A stretch of DNA of 64,000 nucleotides. Origin: Terrimicrobiaceae bacterium (GTDB lineage Bacteria; Verrucomicrobiota; Verrucomicrobiia; Chthoniobacterales; Terrimicrobiaceae). Location: assembly GCA_018402345.1 (NCBI GenBank), contig JAGYIV010000016.1, forward strand, positions 1-64,000, in the 5' to 3' direction. Below the pieces are notes generated by a model that was not told where the DNA came from, searched no databases, and saw only the letters and a list, made by a program, of their open reading frames with translations. A program made the translations under genes and the position numbers. Below, piece by piece: positions 46,789 to 53,254 of this stretch (the first letter of the stretch is position 1; each line of letters starts with the position of its first letter).

Positions 46789-48336
46789 ATGTCCAGTCCA
46801 ACCGGCTCCAAGCCGCCTGTTTCAACAGTGCAGGCGGACCTCGAGCGTTCGTTGCGGGCGGTGCATCAGGAAAAGCTCCGTGCGGCTGCGGCGATTGAAG
46901 CAGCCGGTCAAATTCTGCGCGAATGGGACACGGCCAGCGACGAGTCGCTGTATTCCGGGGCGATGGAGATGATTCTCGGCATTTATCCACATGAATTGGA
47001 CGGGCGCTTCGAGGCGTGGGTGTCGTTGATCCACCCCGACGACCGCGGGAACTACCGCCGCGAGATTCAGCGTGTGTTGAAGGACGGTGGGCCTTTTGAA
47101 ATCGAATACCGGGGCAGGAAACGGAGCGGCAAATACACGCTGTTGCTGGAAAGGGGCTACTTCACCTCGCTTGGCGATGAGGTGAGGCCGGTGCTCTCCT
47201 CGATGATTTCGGATGTCTCGGAATTGCGCGAACTCGAATCGCGCGTTCGAAACGCCCAGCGGGTCGAGGCGTTCAGCCAGTTGACCGGCGGGGTGGCCCA
47301 CGACTTCAACAACATGTTGTCGGTGGTGATCGGTTACGCGCAGATTTTACAGGAGGAATTGGCCGAATCCGACGAGAGGAGATCGTTTTTGGACGAGATC
47401 GAGAAGGCGGCCTTTCGCGCCTCGTCGCTGGCAAACCAGTTGTTGGCGTTCAACAAGCCGCCTGCGGTTCGCAAATCCACGCTTCAGTTGGGCGAATTGC
47501 TGACCGAGGTCACGAAGATGCTCAAGAGGTTGTTGGGCGAGCAAATCGAGTTGGCGATCGTTCCGGATCCCGACCTGTGGCCGGTGATGGCCGATCGAAG
47601 CCAGATCGAGCAGGTATTTATCAATCTGGCGGTCGGTGCCCGCGAGGTGATGCCAAACGGAGGGAGGGTGGAGATTTCGGTGTCCAACGAGGCGCTGGAC
47701 GCCGTTCGCAAAACATCCGCCGGAGACGTGCCGCCGGGAAGCTATGTCCTGATTCGTCTCCTGCTTTTGCCTGAGTCCGGCAAAATGAAAACTAAGGGTC
47801 TGGAAAAAATCAGGAGTGTGACCACGGCGATGAAAGTGCTCGAGCAGAACGGAGGGCACTTGATCGGGGGGGGGCAGGAGAGCGGGAGGATGGTTCTGGA
47901 GGTTTTGCTGCCCGGGATGGTGGACCGTGCTGATGGAGGAATGCGGGAGCTTCCGCTGCGCGCGAAGAGCGGAGCGAGGATTCTTCTGGTCGAGGATGAT
48001 TCGGCCATGCGGCAGTTTGCCAGAACGGTGCTTCGCCGTCTCGGTCACCATGTGGTCGATGCCGCGGACGGGGCTCATGCGCTGGAGTTGCTGGAGGCGG
48101 AAGGTGGTCCCGGGCCCGATCTTTTGGTGACGGACGTGGTAATGCCGAGGATGGGAGGAGCCGAATTGGCCAAAAAGCTTAAACAGTCACGGCCTGGGTT
48201 GGCGGTGCTTTTTCTCTCGGGCTATCCCGACCAGCGTTCGGTTTTGGGACAGTTCGACGGGGATGCCGCGTTTTTGAAAAAGCCTTTTGAAATCGGAGAG
48301 TTGATTTCGGAGGTGGGGAATTTGCTGCCCGGGTAG
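46789..48336 (+). CDS. Hybrid sensor histidine kinase with degenerate ATPase domain and receiver
   Basis: 515 residues in the order PAS (about 40-150, with GIYPHELDGRFEAWVSLIHP), DHp with the phospho-His171 in LTGGVAHDFNNMLSVVIGYA, ATPase-like domain (about 235-390), and receiver (about 400-513, phospho-Asp449 in LLVTDVVMPRMGGAELAKKL). In the ATPase part the N box is FINLAVGAREVMPNGG (normally NLxxNAxDAM), and the G1 motif DxGxG, the F box and G2 are not found: where they should lie the sequence reads LIRLLLLPESGKMKTKGLEK. It should therefore be unable to bind ATP normally. It may act as a phosphatase or phosphotransfer relay. It converges on the next gene with 7 bases between. Confidence 0.85.
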   Translation: MSSPTGSKPPVSTVQADLERSLRAVHQEKLRAAAAIEAAGQILREWDTASDESLYSGAMEMILGIYPHELDGRFEAWVSLIHPDDRGNYRREIQRVLKDGGPFEIEYRGRKRSGKYTLLLERGYFTSLGDEVRPVLSSMISDVSELRELESRVRNAQRVEAFSQLTGGVAHDFNNMLSVVIGYAQILQEELAESDERRSFLDEIEKAAFRASSLANQLLAFNKPPAVRKSTLQLGELLTEVTKMLKRLLGEQIELAIVPDPDLWPVMADRSQIEQVFINLAVGAREVMPNGGRVEISVSNEALDAVRKTSAGDVPPGSYVLIRLLLLPESGKMKTKGLEKIRSVTTAMKVLEQNGGHLIGGGQESGRMVLEVLLPGMVDRADGGMRELPLRAKSGARILLVEDDSAMRQFARTVLRRLGHHVVDAADGAHALELLEAEGGPGPDLLVTDVVMPRMGGAELAKKLKQSRPGLAVLFLSGYPDQRSVLGQFDGDAAFLKKPFEIGELISEVGNLLPG

Positions 48337-48343
48337 AGGCGGT

Positions 48344-49603
48344 TCAGCAGAAGACCAGAAGTTGCCGTGGGAGGGACGAGGAGATGTTGTAGTTCCTGAT
48401 TTTTTTGATCGTGTTTTCCTCGAGGTGGTAACCTTCGGCGACGAGGAGCACGCCGGTGGGACTGTAGATTCCTGTGGCGAGTTGCATGCCGACTTCGAGT
48501 TCGTCCACCATAACTTCGCGCACTGAGCGGGGAAGGTGGGTGGCTTGGGCGCAGCGCAGGAAGAGGCGGGTGGCATCGGGGTCGAATGCTGTGCCGCTTT
48601 GTTCGAGGATCCGGTCCACGGCCTGTTCGCGGGGGAGACCGCAGGTGACGTAATAAACCACGACGGCGAGGCAGCGTGCGGTCCATGGAATCATCTCGCC
48701 CGCGAGGCCATCGGGAAATCCGGAGCCGTCGTAGCGCTCGTGGTGGGCGCGGATGGTGTCGCCGACTGGTTTGAGGAGGTCGACGAAGGAGGCGAGCGTC
48801 TGGCCGTGGATGGTGTGGTTGAGGAAGACGGTCTTGAGTTCCGGGGGGGTGTCCTCGGCGTTGTTCTGGACGGCGGACATGAACCCCGGCGGCACTGCGG
48901 CGAGGCCGATGTCGTAAAGGCGGGCGCTGACATCGAGGACGTGCTTTTGCTCCTCATCGAAATACTGTGTGTCGGCCATGATCTTGCAGATTTTCATGGC
49001 CGACTTGGCTTGCTCGCCGAGAAGTGGATTGAAGGTTGTGAGGATGCGCTGGCAGAGTTCGAGGGAGCGTCCGAAGTTCGTTTTGAGTGCGTCGTGCGCT
49101 TCGTCGATTTCCTTTTTGTCCGCGGCGAGGAGCTTGAGTTGGCGGTCGAGTTGTGTATTTGCCTCGGAGAGTTTTTGATTGAGTTCAAGGGTTGTTTTTT
49201 CGAGCGCCCTATTGGATTCAATGAGTTCGAAGCGCTGGACCGCATTGTGGAGGGTCGCGATCATCTCGGCGGAAATCCACGGCTTGGTTACGAAGCGGAA
49301 AATCTCGCCGCTGTTGACCGCCGCGGCCACGACATCGAGCGATTTGATGCCGGTGATGAGAATGCGGGAAGCGTTTGGCTGGCATTGCGCGAAGCGGCTG
49401 AGGAGGTCGGCGCCCATCATGTCCGGCATGTTGTGGTCGGCGATGACGACGGCGAATTTGCGATCTACGGCCAAGCGGAGGGCCTGCTCGGCGCTTGTAG
49501 TGGAGATGGATTGGTATCCCGCGCGGGTGACGAGGTCGTCCAGCACCTTAAGGATGAGGGGATCGTCATCAACGGTGAGAATGAGGTGTTTGGCGGGATT
49601 CAT
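48344..49603 (-). CDS. Response regulator with degenerate HD-GYP domain
   Basis: 419 residues. The receiver (5-120) is complete: LTVDDDPLILKVLDDLVTRA, phospho-Asp56 in VIADHNMPDMMG, and Lys in FRFVTKPWI. A coiled coil (about 125-180) leads to an HD-GYP fold. There, the first His is missing, the HD dyad reads YD (Y230-D231 in SARLYDIGLAAVP), Lys of HDxGK is Leu234, and the later Asp of the DxYDA motif is absent. Only AHHERYDGSGFPDGLAGEMI (His287-288) keeps the consensus. It should not be a working cyclic-di-GMP phosphodiesterase, but may bind partners or the nucleotide. It follows the phosphotransferase gene by 16 bases. Confidence 0.85.
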   Translation of the reverse strand: MNPAKHLILTVDDDPLILKVLDDLVTRAGYQSISTTSAEQALRLAVDRKFAVVIADHNMPDMMGADLLSRFAQCQPNASRILITGIKSLDVVAAAVNSGEIFRFVTKPWISAEMIATLHNAVQRFELIESNRALEKTTLELNQKLSEANTQLDRQLKLLAADKKEIDEAHDALKTNFGRSLELCQRILTTFNPLLGEQAKSAMKICKIMADTQYFDEEQKHVLDVSARLYDIGLAAVPPGFMSAVQNNAEDTPPELKTVFLNHTIHGQTLASFVDLLKPVGDTIRAHHERYDGSGFPDGLAGEMIPWTARCLAVVVYYVTCGLPREQAVDRILEQSGTAFDPDATRLFLRCAQATHLPRSVREVMVDELEVGMQLATGIYSPTGVLLVAEGYHLEENTIKKIRNYNISSSLPRQLLVFC

Positions 49604-49619
49604 GCAGGAGGAGGCTGGA

Positions 49620-50381
49620 TTAAAGGTTGATCTCTACTTCTGGCAGCACAAGCAAAACTTCGGAACGGCCCGATGCTTTCGGTGGAATCGCGCGCAAGTC
49701 GCCGCTGATGTCCCTCATGATTTGCCGGGCGGCGGCCAAAGTGATTTGCCGGGGGGCGGTTTTCTGAAGTGCCGCATCGATTTCCTCGATCGAATCGCAG
49801 ATGGCCAACTGAGCGGGAAACGAAACGCCAATCGCCACCTCGTTTGGTGCGGAGTCGGGCAACCCGGCGAGGCTTTCTGTGGAATGGAGGGCAAGGACGA
49901 TTTCCGATTTGCCCGGCCCAGCGATGTGCTTGACCACGGAAGCAACCGAAAGAAGAGCTACCCGAAGAGGGTATTCCGGCAAGAAGACATGGAGGGGGCG
50001 GGTGGGTTTGGTGATCGATATCCGGGCTGTCTTTGGAAAAATCAGGCGAAGCAGGTCGAGTTGGGATGACACAAGCAACTCCAGGTCATGGTAGTTTTGC
50101 TCGCGTTCCGCGGTATTCAGGTGGATTTGTGCGGTGCGACCGAGGAGTTCCTTGATTCGCTCCACGCCTTGGTTGGTTTCCCTGAGCGCCTCGCTGGCCG
50201 GATGGGAGGAATCAAAGAAATCCCGCATGGTTTCCAGATTGAAATAAATCCCGGTCAGCAGGTTGTTCATCTCGTGAACAAGGCCGGGGGTGAGTGTCGC
50301 GTTGATGCAATCCGACAAAGTATCCAGCAGGCTGACGCCCTCCCGGGCGGATGGCGACTGCTGGGGTGTGGATTCGGTCAT
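49620..50381 (-). CDS. DHp-type (ChpT-like) histidine phosphotransferase candidate
   Basis: 253 residues. The H box (GLVHEMNNLLTGIYFNLETM, His36) resembles the HEMNN/HDFNN box of histidine kinases, followed by the second helix of a DHp hairpin (GVERIKELLGRTAQIHLNTA). The C-terminal region keeps an ATPase-like layout (LRVALLSVASVVKHIAGPGK) but has no N, G1 or G2 box. This is the architecture of ChpT, a dimeric phosphotransferase that passes phosphate between receivers. It begins an operon part with the degenerate HD-GYP regulator (16 bases) and follows the lipoprotein gene by 30 bases. Confidence 0.7.
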   Translation of the reverse strand: MTESTPQQSPSAREGVSLLDTLSDCINATLTPGLVHEMNNLLTGIYFNLETMRDFFDSSHPASEALRETNQGVERIKELLGRTAQIHLNTAEREQNYHDLELLVSSQLDLLRLIFPKTARISITKPTRPLHVFLPEYPLRVALLSVASVVKHIAGPGKSEIVLALHSTESLAGLPDSAPNEVAIGVSFPAQLAICDSIEEIDAALQKTAPRQITLAAARQIMRDISGDLRAIPPKASGRSEVLLVLPEVEINL

Positions 50382-50411
50382 GCGGGCTACGGAGCGATCG
50401 GGTTTCGCAGA

Positions 50412-51143
50412 CTATCGATTTGTGGAGGGTTCGGGGGGTGGGGGGGCGAGACTGGCGAACGTTTCGTGGGCGACAAAGCCGGCGTAGAGGCGCGGGCTTT
50501 GGAGAAGAATCTGGTTGCCGCTGTTCTTCTCGCGTTCCTGTCCCTTTGTGATTGTGGGACTGACGTAGCGCATTTGAAGGCCTGTATCGGCGAACATTGA
50601 AGCCATGTCGGCAACATCCGGTTCCGCCGCATCAAGAATGCCGTCGGCCATCCAAATCACGTCCATGTTTTTGAGATTGACGATTTTCGCACGGACGCCG
50701 ATGGCGAGTGGTTTGTAGGGACGGAAGACGGTGAAGTCCGTGAAGAGTGCCGCATCCGCCGCATATTTGTTTTTCAAAGCGGCAATCACGCTCGCGGGAA
50801 TGAGTTCCGTCGAGGAAACGGCTTCTTGGTCGATGAGGGAGAGCATTTCTTCCCTGCTGACTTCGACGATCTCGTATTTCACGACGCGGGCGAGTTGGGC
50901 GCGGAAAATTCCGTCCATATCTCGTTGGGTGGCGTCGATGGGGCGGCTGGAATAGATCGGGAGCATGGCGAGTCGGCGCATTCCGGCGGGCCAGGCGATT
51001 CCTCCGGGTTGGGAGATGGTCGCTGCGGAGCGGGCGGTCTTGTCGTTGAGGGTTCTGGAGGAGGGTTGGTTCGAGCAACCACAAAGAAAAAGCGAGAGGG
51101 CCGCGCAAACAACGCCGGTGGAGAAAAGAAATCGAAGGAACAT
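50412..51143 (-). CDS. Lipoprotein, CsgG/FlgO-like periplasmic domain
   Basis: 243 residues. Signal peptide ending in a lipobox (ALSLFLCGC), so it is lipid-anchored. The mature part has the alternating strands of the CsgG/GNA1162/FlgO group: RLAMLPIYSSRPIDATQRDM, EIVEVSREEMLSLIDQEAV, ADAALFTDFTVFRPYKPLAI and VRAKIVNLKNMDVIWMADG. It starts the minus-strand transcript leading to the phosphotransferase and pseudo-HD-GYP genes, and could be the envelope input of that module (inference). It is divergent from another lipoprotein gene. Confidence 0.75.
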   Translation of the reverse strand: MFLRFLFSTGVVCAALSLFLCGCSNQPSSRTLNDKTARSAATISQPGGIAWPAGMRRLAMLPIYSSRPIDATQRDMDGIFRAQLARVVKYEIVEVSREEMLSLIDQEAVSSTELIPASVIAALKNKYAADAALFTDFTVFRPYKPLAIGVRAKIVNLKNMDVIWMADGILDAAEPDVADMASMFADTGLQMRYVSPTITKGQEREKNSGNQILLQSPRLYAGFVAHETFASLAPPPPEPSTNR

Positions 51144-51338
51144 GTTGGGTTGATGCAAGCAACTTTCATGCCTTATCCCGCCTCCCTTCGTCAAGGAGTC
51201 GCTCCTGTCGCATTCGCTGTGCATTGTCGCAACGGAACTCGAAAACAAAGACCGGCGCCACGACGAAAGGCAAAAATTTCCGCTTGTTCGGAAGTGATTT
51301 CCTCTTAAGTTTTGAAGTCCCCGAACGATTCAAGGAGT

Positions 51339-51815
51339 ATGACATCCCTTTTGACTTCCAAGTTCCCTCTCGCCCGCCTCGCCGGTGTCCTTGTGCTTTC
51401 GATTGTTCCATTTCTTTTCGTCGCATGCGCCTCCAAGAAGCCGCCGGCCCGCAAAGTCGCCTTTGTTTCTCCCCAACCGCTGCCTAAACCCGCGCCGATG
51501 CGTGTGGCACCCGACACCAGCAACCGGAGGAAGGCCCCTCTGCTTCCGAAAACGATCGTCAATATCCGTGACGATAGCGATTCGCAACTCGCAGTGCCCG
51601 GCATTGGTGACGAGTTTTTGCCCCCTGCCCAGCCCCAAGTCGTGAGTTCCGCGACTCCGGAATATATCAACAACGAGCAGCCCCAGGATTTCTTCCAAGG
51701 GGTCGGAGAGGCTCCCGCCGGCGAGACAATCCTCGGATCATTTTTTGATTCCGTGTTCCGGCCAGCGACACCGGCCAACCAACCGGTCAGCAGCGCCACA
51801 TACAAAGTCGAATAA
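51339..51815 (+). CDS. Small Pro-rich lipoprotein
   Basis: 158 residues from the ATG at 51339, with a signal peptide and lipobox (IVPFLFVACASKKP). The mature protein is Pro-rich and low in predicted structure (PKPAPMRVAPDTSNRRKAPL), with no recognised domain. An AAGGAG sits just one base before the start codon, too close to be a normal ribosome-binding site. The stop and the TPR start share one base (TAATG), so they form a unit, probably a lipoprotein attached to a TPR partner. Confidence 0.7.
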   Translation: MTSLLTSKFPLARLAGVLVLSIVPFLFVACASKKPPARKVAFVSPQPLPKPAPMRVAPDTSNRRKAPLLPKTIVNIRDDSDSQLAVPGIGDEFLPPAQPQVVSSATPEYINNEQPQDFFQGVGEAPAGETILGSFFDSVFRPATPANQPVSSATYKVE

Positions 51816-53254
51816 TGCGTTTCACCACACAGACACTCGCGGTCCTGATCGGGGCCGGCACCGCCTTCTGCGAAATTGCCACACCGCCTCCGCTCGGAAC
51901 GGCGTCCTCTTCTGCCATGGAGGATGCTTTGGGAAATACAACGCCGCGCTCGCTTGATCCCGCACCCGGACGGCCGAATCTAAATCCGATTTCCGATTTT
52001 AAGGCATTGTCACCCGAAGTCGAACAGCACCCCGATTACCGCGCCAAGTCCGAATCACGGGAAATTGTGGGAATGGAAGCGGAAATCCAGCGCGCCATCG
52101 ATGGCGGCGATCCTGTGCTTGCCGAGCAGTTTTTCAACAAGCTTCTCCAAGAGGGGGGATCGGACGAGGGCAAGCGTGATGCGATTCTTCGAATGGGGCG
52201 CGCGATGCAAGACCAAGTCAAGCAACCGGCAAAGGCGATCGTGGTTTACGAGCAGTTTGTGGATTTGTTCCCGAATGATCCCGAGGCGCCCGACGTCCTG
52301 TTGAGGCTCGGGAGAATTTATCGCGACCAAGGGGCCTACGCGACTGCCTTGAACAAATTTTACGGAGTTCTTTATTCGGCTCTGCAAGTGAAAACCGTCG
52401 GCCCATCTGGTGACAATTCCCTGCGTGCCAAAATGGAAATCGCACACACCCATTTTGCAGCCGGGGACTACCCGAAAGCCTTGGAGTTGTATTCCAGGAT
52501 CAAGCTGCTGGACATGTCGCAGGAGGAGGCCAGTGAAGTCGCTTTCCGGCGCGCGTATATCTCTTATTTGGCAAAGGACTATGTGACATCACTCAACGAT
52601 GCCCAAACCTTTCTTGCCACCTATCCTGCGAGTCCGCTCGCGCCCGAGGCCCAGTATTTGTATGTGCAATCCCTGAAATCACTCGGCCGCGATAAGGAGG
52701 CAATGGGTGAAACAATGAAGCTCCTCGAAGCAGGTCGACAATACGGAAAGAAGAACCCGGAAGTTTGGGTTTATTGGCAGCGCAAAACAGGCAACGACAT
52801 TGCTAACGAGCTTTACGAGAACAACGATATCGTCGGCGCGCTTTCCATTTATCAAAAACTCGCGAACCTTGACACAGACCCTGGTTGGCGGGGGTCGGCG
52901 GTGTATCAGATCGGGCTTTGCTTCGAGCGCCTTCGCCACCTGAACCGCGCGAAGGAGGCCTACAAATGGATCGTCGACAATGTGAAGCCGTCTGCTCCCA
53001 GTGCGACGGATTCCTTGTTGGGAATCAACCTCCAGACATTGCACGAGCTAGCCGCTTGGCGTTTGGACAACCTCGCGTGGTTGGAGAAGACCGAGCAGGA
53101 GGTCTATCCGTTGCTCAACAAGCCGATTCCCGGTCCCCAGGCGCCTGCCGCTTCGGGGCAATCAACGACGACAGAGTTGTCTCAAGCCGCCAAGGTGATC
53201 GGGGGAAATCCTTCTCCGCAGGGCGACGCGGGATTGCCCTCAGCGACGCGGTAG
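51815..53254 (+). CDS. Exported TPR-repeat protein
   Basis: 479 residues with a signal peptide (MRFTTQTLAVLIGAGTAFCE). About eight TPR-type helix pairs fill residues 85-400: KAIVVYEQFVDLFPNDPEAP, VLLRLGRIYRDQGAYATALN, AHTHFAAGDYPKALELYSRI and YLAKDYVTSLNDAQTFLATY. The style is that of BamD/YbgF-type periplasmic scaffolds (repeat phrase 'Y..FL..YP.S'). No catalytic motif. It is translationally coupled to the small lipoprotein. It may help assemble outer-membrane or polymer machines, but the partner is unknown. Confidence 0.8.
   Translation: MRFTTQTLAVLIGAGTAFCEIATPPPLGTASSSAMEDALGNTTPRSLDPAPGRPNLNPISDFKALSPEVEQHPDYRAKSESREIVGMEAEIQRAIDGGDPVLAEQFFNKLLQEGGSDEGKRDAILRMGRAMQDQVKQPAKAIVVYEQFVDLFPNDPEAPDVLLRLGRIYRDQGAYATALNKFYGVLYSALQVKTVGPSGDNSLRAKMEIAHTHFAAGDYPKALELYSRIKLLDMSQEEASEVAFRRAYISYLAKDYVTSLNDAQTFLATYPASPLAPEAQYLYVQSLKSLGRDKEAMGETMKLLEAGRQYGKKNPEVWVYWQRKTGNDIANELYENNDIVGALSIYQKLANLDTDPGWRGSAVYQIGLCFERLRHLNRAKEAYKWIVDNVKPSAPSATDSLLGINLQTLHELAAWRLDNLAWLEKTEQEVYPLLNKPIPGPQAPAASGQSTTTELSQAAKVIGGNPSPQGDAGLPSATR

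Follow-up and report, generated by a model that had tools for sequence, protein, structure and literature searches.

Degenerate Signaling Proteins Encoded in a Likely Operon Linked to Flagellar Genes

Three adjacent genes in a 64,000-nucleotide stretch of bacterial DNA (the window, i.e., the whole stretch that was analyzed) encode a lipoprotein, a DHp-type protein (the DHp protein), and a response regulator in which a receiver is joined to a degenerate HD-GYP-like domain (the receiver/HD protein). Across the order to which the source genome belongs, the receiver/HD gene goes with flagellar genes, both in the genomes that carry it and in its position. That disabled signaling proteins travel with flagellum genes suggests a relay that helps to run the flagellum; on balance, we consider it probable that the three genes form a flagellum-linked signaling unit of the order, one that acts as a branch of a phosphorelay and delivers its output by protein contact.

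Locus Organization

The lipoprotein, DHp, and receiver/HD genes share the minus strand with gaps of 16 and 30 nt and likely form an operon, and a hybrid pseudo-kinase gene on the plus strand is convergent to it (Table 1). An earlier note on this DNA had placed all four with correct coordinates and reading frames and had treated them as one set of neighbors. Looked for in relatives, as that note proposed, the four-gene order was kept in 14/14 genus-mates that have the receiver/HD gene (the outermost gene being sometimes cut by a contig end), and the neighborhood is more than chance; only three of the genes belong to the likely operon.

TABLE 1. Features of the locus, with the parts and residues assigned to each product.
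Feature	Position	Strand	Parts and residues	Basis
Hybrid pseudo-kinase	46789..48336	+	PAS aa 55-126; DHp His171 (codon 47299-47301); degenerate CA region aa 226-376; receiver aa 398-508, phospho-acceptor Asp449	Pfam, orthologue alignments, box search, control kinases
Response regulator with degenerate HD-GYP-like domain (receiver/HD protein)	48344..49603	-	Receiver aa 8-118 (Asp56); HD_5 aa 183-343; conserved C-terminal region aa 356-419	Pfam, NCBIfam, ligand tallies, flagellar linkage
DHp protein, phosphotransferase/phosphatase candidate	49620..50381	-	His36 (codon 50274-50276); ATP-site-less CA-like domain aa 93-253	Pfam, AlphaFold model, fold match, motif tallies
Lipoprotein, first gene of likely operon	50412..51143	-	Cys23	Cys23; homologues near FliS in other families
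Small divergent gene	51312..51815	+		Adjoins operon in 12/14 genus stretches with the operon
TPR protein	51815..53254	+		Divergent from operon in 12/14 genus stretches and in G046

The first operon gene had been described as a CsgG-like lipoprotein. The lipoprotein half of this description stands, with Cys23 invariant in 10/10 family members, but the CsgG half was not established: the window protein had no Pfam or NCBIfam match, its predicted model is poor (pLDDT 55), and 8/10 family members gave weak GNA1162-like matches (best E 0.0062). A lipoprotein homologue occurs on the same stretch in 16/21 receiver/HD copies from outside the genus. In one genome (G013), genes for a rod-type protein, FliE, FliF, and FliG start <1 kb beyond the TPR gene. 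The window also holds a recN-like gene, assigned by eye with a weak SMC_N match in Pfam.

Linkage to Flagellar Genes

With the best 8 candidates per genome scored, the receiver/HD protein was found in 35/213 genomes of the order at E ≤ 1e-60 (a limit of our own choosing, as is the E ≤ 1e-10 used below for the DHp protein), and FliS in 36/213. Both occur in 34 genomes, the receiver/HD protein alone in one (G010), FliS alone in two (G005 and G082), and neither in 176; outside the genus the corresponding numbers are 20, 0, 1, and 176, and Fisher tests on this co-occurrence ignore the relatedness of the genomes. The genes also lie close to one another, FliS being ≤1.3 kb from the receiver/HD gene in 16/20 non-genus genomes, ≤10 kb away in two more, and on another contig in two. 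In L216, the sole non-genus stretch that was annotated gene by gene, Pfam identifies FliD, FliS, two rod-type proteins, FliE, and FliF in the surroundings of the receiver/HD gene. Genes labeled FlgM-like and FlgN-like, along with most gene names in L235, L236, and L242, were assigned by eye; the former had no Pfam or NCBIfam match in L216 and no NCBIfam match in L235. Within the genus co-location is loose: FliS is ~52 kb away from the operon in G003 and G015 and on other contigs in the rest, and no flagellar protein was found among the 20 window proteins run through Pfam. By co-occurrence and co-location together, the receiver/HD gene belongs with the flagellar cluster.

CheW was undetected in 4/35 carriers (G013, G015, G110, and G153), so the unit seemingly does not depend on chemotaxis, which we set aside as a shared role. 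Co-occurrence with FliS could reflect operon membership alone.

Degenerate Kinases and the Proposed Relay

The DHp protein is predicted to be a truncated histidine kinase without an ATP site. Its AlphaFold model (pLDDT 80.5) has a DHp and CA fold, the best fold match being the CA domain of CckA (5idm; Z 17.2, rmsd 2.9 over 159); HisKA scores 25.4 bits in Pfam, slightly below the cut-off of 26.9; the acceptor His is retained in 20/20 proteins; and no ATP boxes occur in it. With this anatomy of degenerate-kinase phosphotransferases (i.e., a DHp His and a CA fold lacking ATP boxes), it is a candidate phosphotransferase or phosphatase of the ChpT/Spo0B/PhyT kind, in agreement with the earlier suggestion of a DHp-type candidate. 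Membership of the ChpT family by cut-off was rejected, the protein having no match to the ChpT model PF10090 at E ≤ 1 in Pfam, which leaves room for a distant relation. At E ≤ 1e-10 it was found in 20/213 genomes of the order, always in a receiver/HD carrier and, in 20/20, encoded directly upstream of the receiver/HD gene.

In the hybrid pseudo-kinase, Pfam finds PAS_3, HisKA (41.4 bits; cut-off 26.9), and Response_reg and no match to HATPase_c. The G1 (DxGxG) and G2 patterns are absent from 14/14 readable sequences, window included (the kinase region is unreadable in the fragment L105 and in L091, the latter by eye without G1/G2), and the His-box HDFNN is retained in 16/16. Used as Pfam controls, the orthologues L233, L234, L091, and L100 had no HATPase_c score and the relative L050 scored 87 bits. 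Homologues at E ≤ 1e-99 occur in the genus, G026, and G036 only (best 7 candidates per genome scored); because this self-chosen limit marks a narrow gap, the next match being at 9.3e-97, the ten next-closest kinases were fetched as further controls, and HATPase_c is present in 10/10 (70–84 bits). With HATPase_c and the G1/G2 boxes missing, an active histidine kinase was rejected as the identity of this gene. The search for intact boxes had been proposed in the earlier note, and its outcome bears out that note's reading of a hybrid kinase without usable ATPase boxes; the pattern behind that reading, phospho-acceptors kept while catalytic motifs are missing, proved common to the genus.

In the relay that we favor, phosphate would be supplied by a kinase encoded elsewhere, and the DHp dimer would carry phosphate to Asp56 of the receiver/HD protein or strip it off. 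The pseudo-kinase may act as a second DHp/receiver shuttle or as a scaffold in the same circuit, which is the weakest step. A distant kinase, as suggested in the earlier note, may be dispensable in G026 and G036, where a receiver-HisKA-HATPase gene (the f2 receiver-kinase, ~59% identical) stands directly upstream of the DHp gene and perhaps provides the phosphate. Its ATPase domain scores above the Pfam cut-off in both genomes; its activity is not certain, because the G1 box reads D-x-G-x-T by eye. In the retrieved genus stretches, tblastn found no orthologue of it and only receiver-domain matches of ~30%.

The alternative that deserves most weight, doubtful as we hold it to be, does without a relay: the receiver/HD protein would be a flagellar response regulator of the ordinary kind, with the DHp protein as nothing more than its phosphatase or a sequestering partner, and the pseudo-kinase would be an unrelated neighbor. 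In HisKA proteins the residue at H+4 is tied to phosphatase action and an acid at H+1 to the kinase reaction. The DHp proteins have Asn at H+4 in 19/20 and an acid at H+1 in 16/20 (missing in 4/20), three of the 20 rows (L091, L094, and G036) being scored by eye; this pattern favors the alternative and counts for the favored unit as well. The DHp gene was, moreover, not found in 15/35 receiver/HD carriers at E ≤ 1e-10 and so is not essential to the role of the receiver/HD protein, and PhyT likewise sequesters PhyR (excerpts of PMC5898713). The convergent orientation of the pseudo-kinase gene, and its position away from the operon in G026 and G036, would also suit an unrelated neighbor. However, it adjoins the operon in 14/14 genus-mates, and in G026 it directly precedes a flagellar run (FlgD, a hook/rod-type protein, FliL, FliM, FlhB, and FlhA); in G036 no flagellar gene adjoins it, as judged by eye.

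The Receiver/HD Protein and c-di-GMP

The HD_5 domain (PF13487) of the receiver/HD protein scores 84.5 bits against a cut-off of 27.2. Of the ligands listed for PmGH in the portion of PMC4159591 used here, E185, H189, H221, and D305 are replaced by L, Q, Y, and V, whereas the metal ligands D222, H250, H276, and H277 and the G-[YF]-P motif are invariant in 36/36 homologues; the catalytic Lys (K225) is L in 36/36. The positions of E185 and H189 were matched by spacing in a sequence alignment and that of D305 (residue 316 here, Asp in 1/36 homologues, G059) via the match to PA4781 (4r8z). With four of eight ligands and the Lys lost, c-di-GMP hydrolysis was rejected as an activity of this protein; the earlier description, "missing most metal ligands," is right about these losses but passes over the four ligands that are present throughout. 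Purifying selection on the gene is strong, with dN/dS values of 0.010–0.038 for the HD part in 7 pairs. The receiver is complete throughout the genus; a usable one is missing in G089, G091, and probably G068, and G066 has Asn at position 56. In the favored relay, phosphorylation of Asp56 would alter the docking of the HD-GYP-like domain on a partner in flagellar assembly or export, and the output would be binding, not hydrolysis.

GGDEF is the domain that synthesizes c-di-GMP. In a GGDEF survey of 58 genomes, 18 of them carriers, it was undetected at E ≤ 1e-6 in 13/18 carriers and present in 5/18, the window's own genome included; the negative carriers include G003, G004, G006, G008, G013, and G046, each ≥93% complete. 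A c-di-GMP read-out is thus unlikely as a general role and was rejected as such. These same genomes weigh against the improbable alternative that the HD-GYP-like domain binds c-di-GMP without splitting it and couples it to the flagellum, as does the equal conservation of the receiver/HD protein within the genus with and without GGDEF. In its favor are the invariant ligands and G-[YF]-P motif, and a PmGH monomer with only the G-site iron that, in PMC4159591, was crystallized with unsplit c-di-GMP.

More improbable still is that the four genes form a phosphorelay of their own with no particular connection to the flagellum. Within the genus they do sit together, away from FliS, but the order-wide distribution and the flagellar gene context argue against this reading. 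Of the joint signaling module in the earlier note, the anatomy of the DHp protein is upheld as ChpT/Spo0B/PhyT-like, but the module is not free-standing, the receiver/HD gene being linked to the flagellum. That the genes are decaying, their catalytic motifs lost once selection was lifted, is highly improbable and was set aside on the dN/dS evidence, for although evolution is faster in the CA-like halves (dN/dS reaching 0.35 for the DHp protein and 0.33 for the pseudo-kinase), no genus match has an internal stop, the acceptor residues are invariant, and the receiver/HD protein is 78–84% identical within the genus versus 40–47% for the DHp protein.

Tentatively, we extend the favored relay into a possible general picture, in which flagellum assembly in the flagellated members of the order would be supervised by pseudo-enzymes. 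One would be a truncated kinase limited to passing on or removing phosphate, and the other an HD-GYP domain that has turned from a c-di-GMP enzyme into a c-di-GMP-independent docking module for the flagellar export or assembly machinery, kept even where c-di-GMP synthesis is gone.

Comparison With Known Systems

The locus offers a testable role for a conserved regulator with a degenerate HD-GYP domain, many of whose hosts apparently do not make the molecule with which such regulators usually partner. It illustrates that both halves of a two-component system can shed catalytic residues and yet keep their phospho-acceptors nearly fixed. It also supplies a candidate flagellar regulator for Verrucomicrobiota-type bacteria, a group known mostly from environmental genomes; text searches of open-licence literature, in the portions they returned, found no account of such a regulator there.

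The receiver/HD protein shares its receiver/HD-GYP/C-terminal layout with NosR of Burkholderia, itself degenerate (HG-GTP) and phosphorylated by the kinase NosK (excerpts of PMC12570481). Against the NosR model NF053512 it scores 295.3 bits over its full length (aa 8-414), and family membership by cut-off (400 bits) was rejected; its homologues L216, L215, and L120 also fall short (276–327 bits), and L123 and L124 pass (479 and 447 bits). Next to the NosR-like L123, L124, and L135 lie genes for other receivers, not flagellar genes, and an MglA-like GTPase was seen by eye near L123 and L135. Unlike NosR as those excerpts describe it, the receiver/HD protein occurs in a flagellar context with a DHp protein in place of NosP/NosK as its partner, and GGDEF is mostly undetected in its carriers. 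HnoD of Shewanella, also a response regulator with a degenerate HD-GYP domain, acts by protein contact, not hydrolysis; however, according to excerpts of PMC6335343, HnoD restrains the c-di-GMP phosphodiesterase HnoB, whereas for the receiver/HD protein a c-di-GMP enzyme partner is unlikely in those carriers that have no GGDEF.

Like the DHp protein, PhyT, ChpT, and Spo0B combine a conserved DHp His with a degenerated kinase-derived domain, and PhyT both transfers phosphate from one receiver to another and sequesters its target, as stated in the excerpts of PMC5898713; the DHp protein differs from them in having no PF10090 match, a degenerate HD-GYP regulator as partner, and a flagellar linkage. 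CckA-type hybrid kinases provide both the solved sequence closest to the pseudo-kinase (5idj) and the fold closest to the DHp protein, yet the ATP boxes are gone and the pseudo-kinase is far under the equivalog cut-offs (236 bits against the CckA cut-off of 1000, NCBIfam). Two-component control is likewise tied to flagellum assembly in FlgS/FlgR, FleS/FleR, and FlrB/FlrC, which, in the text drawn from PMC3930126, each consist of a sensor kinase and an RpoN-dependent activator; Pfam finds neither a DNA-binding output domain nor an ATPase domain in the window's three signaling proteins. The set varies on the known NosR/HnoD and ChpT/Spo0B/PhyT systems, and its flagellar linkage is new.

Locus and Flagellar Linkage

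The four genes claimed by the earlier note are all present (see table). They sit on contig C10; the genome measures 3.1 Mb, and its closest named relatives are MAGs carrying the labels Spartobacteria, Verrucomicrobia, Terrimicrobiaceae or Chthoniobacter. Isolate names, LacPavin and Erken among them, suggest that several of these come from lakes. The three minus-strand genes likely form an operon (order: lipoprotein, DHp protein, receiver/HD protein), and the hybrid kinase gene, preceded by a recN-like gene, is convergent with it. Within the genus, identity is 78–84% for the receiver/HD protein, 61–78% for the lipoprotein (its earlier CsgG-like label is unproven), 51–60% for the kinase—a kinase fragment in G005, at 84%, lies above this range—and 40–47% for the DHp protein.

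Coordinates of the four-gene locus and of related genes
Feature	Genome	Position	Strand
Hybrid pseudo-kinase	window	46789-48336	+
Receiver/HD protein	window	48344-49603	-
DHp protein	window	49620-50381	-
Lipoprotein	window	50412-51143	-
Receiver-HisKA-HATPase kinase	G036	L106:3302-4456	
Receiver-HisKA-HATPase kinase	G026	L107:3575-4720	
FlhA-type gene, two reading frames	G000 (window's own)	C4:319921-321938 (L236:3868-5999)	
FHIPEP protein, ~756 bits	G000	C4:45112-47103	
FHIPEP protein, ~756 bits	G012	C223	
FHIPEP protein, ~756 bits	G011	C107	

The main new fact is a flagellar linkage. Across the 213 genomes of the order surveyed, 35 have the receiver/HD gene (E<=1e-60, best eight candidates per genome scored) and 36 the flagellar chaperone FliS; 34 have both and 176 neither. 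The exceptions (receiver/HD without FliS in G010; FliS without receiver/HD in G005 and G082) may be assembly gaps, since G010 and G005 are incomplete drafts (86 and 90% complete) and the G082 assembly carries 7% contamination. Of 20 genomes outside the genus, 16 place FliS <=1.3 kb from the receiver/HD gene and two more, G046 and G059, have it no further than 10 kb away; in the genus it is located elsewhere, not beside the operon. Stretch L216 surrounds the receiver/HD gene with FliD, FliS, two rod-type proteins, FliE and FliF (Pfam), the lipoprotein homologue sitting between FliD and FliS, and in the genus member G013 rod-type, FliE, FliF and FliG genes start <1 kb past the operon-adjacent TPR gene. 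A scan for a FlgB-type motif in 27 genus and f2-family stretches (L091–L105, L111–L122), many too short to extend that far, gave three positives, ~5 kb (L113, L119) and ~9 kb (L116) from the receiver/HD gene, and none within the window.

An FlhA-type gene of the window's genome changes reading frame around its midpoint, through either real damage or assembly error, and both halves are ~85% identical to the G013 gene. The ~756-bit FHIPEP proteins possibly belong to a non-flagellar type III secretion system; families f7 and f13 include genomes that lack FliS, whose full-length matches score nearby, at 718–756 bits. CheW was not detected in FliS-bearing G015 (99% complete) and G013 (95%), which perhaps have flagella without chemotaxis.

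Conserved Motif Losses

The motif losses claimed previously are real and conserved. The hybrid pseudo-kinase carries PAS_3, HisKA and receiver domains with no Pfam match to HATPase_c; in its orthologues the G1-to-G2 stretch has become shorter and lost its glycines (alignment), and in the sequences read the second N-box Asn is replaced by G, A or T. All 11 aligned proteins share His171, receiver Asp449 and Lys498. Homologues at E<=1e-99 (best seven candidates per genome scored) occur in 16 genus genomes, the window's included, plus G026 and G036, and the next matches start at 9.3e-97. All ten next-closest kinases fetched keep HATPase_c (70–84 bits), whereas the same test that gave 87 bits for control L050 found none in orthologues L233, L234, L091 and L100; loss of the ATPase domain is therefore the mark of a single lineage. 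After the pseudo-kinase gene, G026 encodes FlgD, a hook/rod-type protein, FliL, FliM, FlhB and FlhA; in G036, read by eye, no flagellar genes lie near it.

The receiver/HD protein has a complete receiver (D12, D13, D56, T84, K107). The earlier description of its HD domain as missing most metal ligands is half right: of the eight reported for the HD-GYP reference PmGH (PMC4159591), E185, H189, H221 and D305 are lost, but D222, H250, H276 and H277 are kept, and invariant over 36 homologues. Among these, the K225 position is always Leu, 29 have Tyr and seven His at the H221 position, and H189 and D305 are retained in one each. The HD part has a dN/dS of 0.010–0.038 (seven pairs). In three homologues (L230, L231 and L228, from G091, G089 and G066) the receiver is absent or damaged, or its phospho-acceptor position holds Asn, and the same four HD ligands are kept. 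G062 has two receiver/HD copies (C122 and C78), the second with no lipoprotein homologue found within the stretch examined.

The DHp gene (E<=1e-10) is present in 20 of 213 genomes, every one a carrier of the receiver/HD gene, which it adjoins on the upstream side each time. Its AlphaFold model (12 sequences; pLDDT 80.5, pTM 0.76) predicts a CA-like domain and two long helices, with CckA structures as best fold matches. All 20 proteins have the His, 19 have Asn at H+4 and 16 an acidic residue at H+1 (three rows read by hand), and the G1/G2 pattern is absent from the 17 scored by script.

Proposed Relay and Known Systems

Directly before the DHp and receiver/HD genes of G026 and G036 lies a receiver-HisKA-HATPase kinase gene (~59% identical between the two; G1 box slightly altered, by eye), the sole kinase candidate so far and a candidate phosphate donor. 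In the proposed relay a kinase would phosphorylate a receiver or the DHp protein; a DHp dimer would pass phosphate to Asp56, or remove it, and the degenerate HD domain would dock on a flagellar partner. The lipoprotein may add envelope input and the pseudo-kinase cytoplasmic input.

A survey restricted to the c-di-GMP synthase domain GGDEF detected it in 25 of 58 genomes, including five of 18 carriers (G000, G012, G015, G026, G036), and not in carriers such as G003 (100% complete) and G008 (98%). Of the 15 genomes from the genus, 12 gave no GGDEF match, and FliS or FlhA-type genes were found in genus members without it; loss of c-di-GMP signalling in the genus is possible. The invariant half-site resembles the G-site-only state of PmGH, which held unsplit c-di-GMP; by this likeness, the receiver/HD protein could bind c-di-GMP or another ligand.

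An open-licence literature search found no account of this combination of parts in a flagellar setting; taken singly, every part is a variant on a known type. The receiver/HD protein aligns full-length with the NosR family, scoring below the cut-off. (In L123 and L135, by eye, the NosR-like regulator genes neighbour an MglA-like GTPase and a number of other receivers.) The degenerate HD-GYP regulator has precedents in NosR (PMC12570481) and HnoD (PMC6335343), and the DHp part in PhyT, with ChpT and Spo0B cited alongside (PMC5898713).
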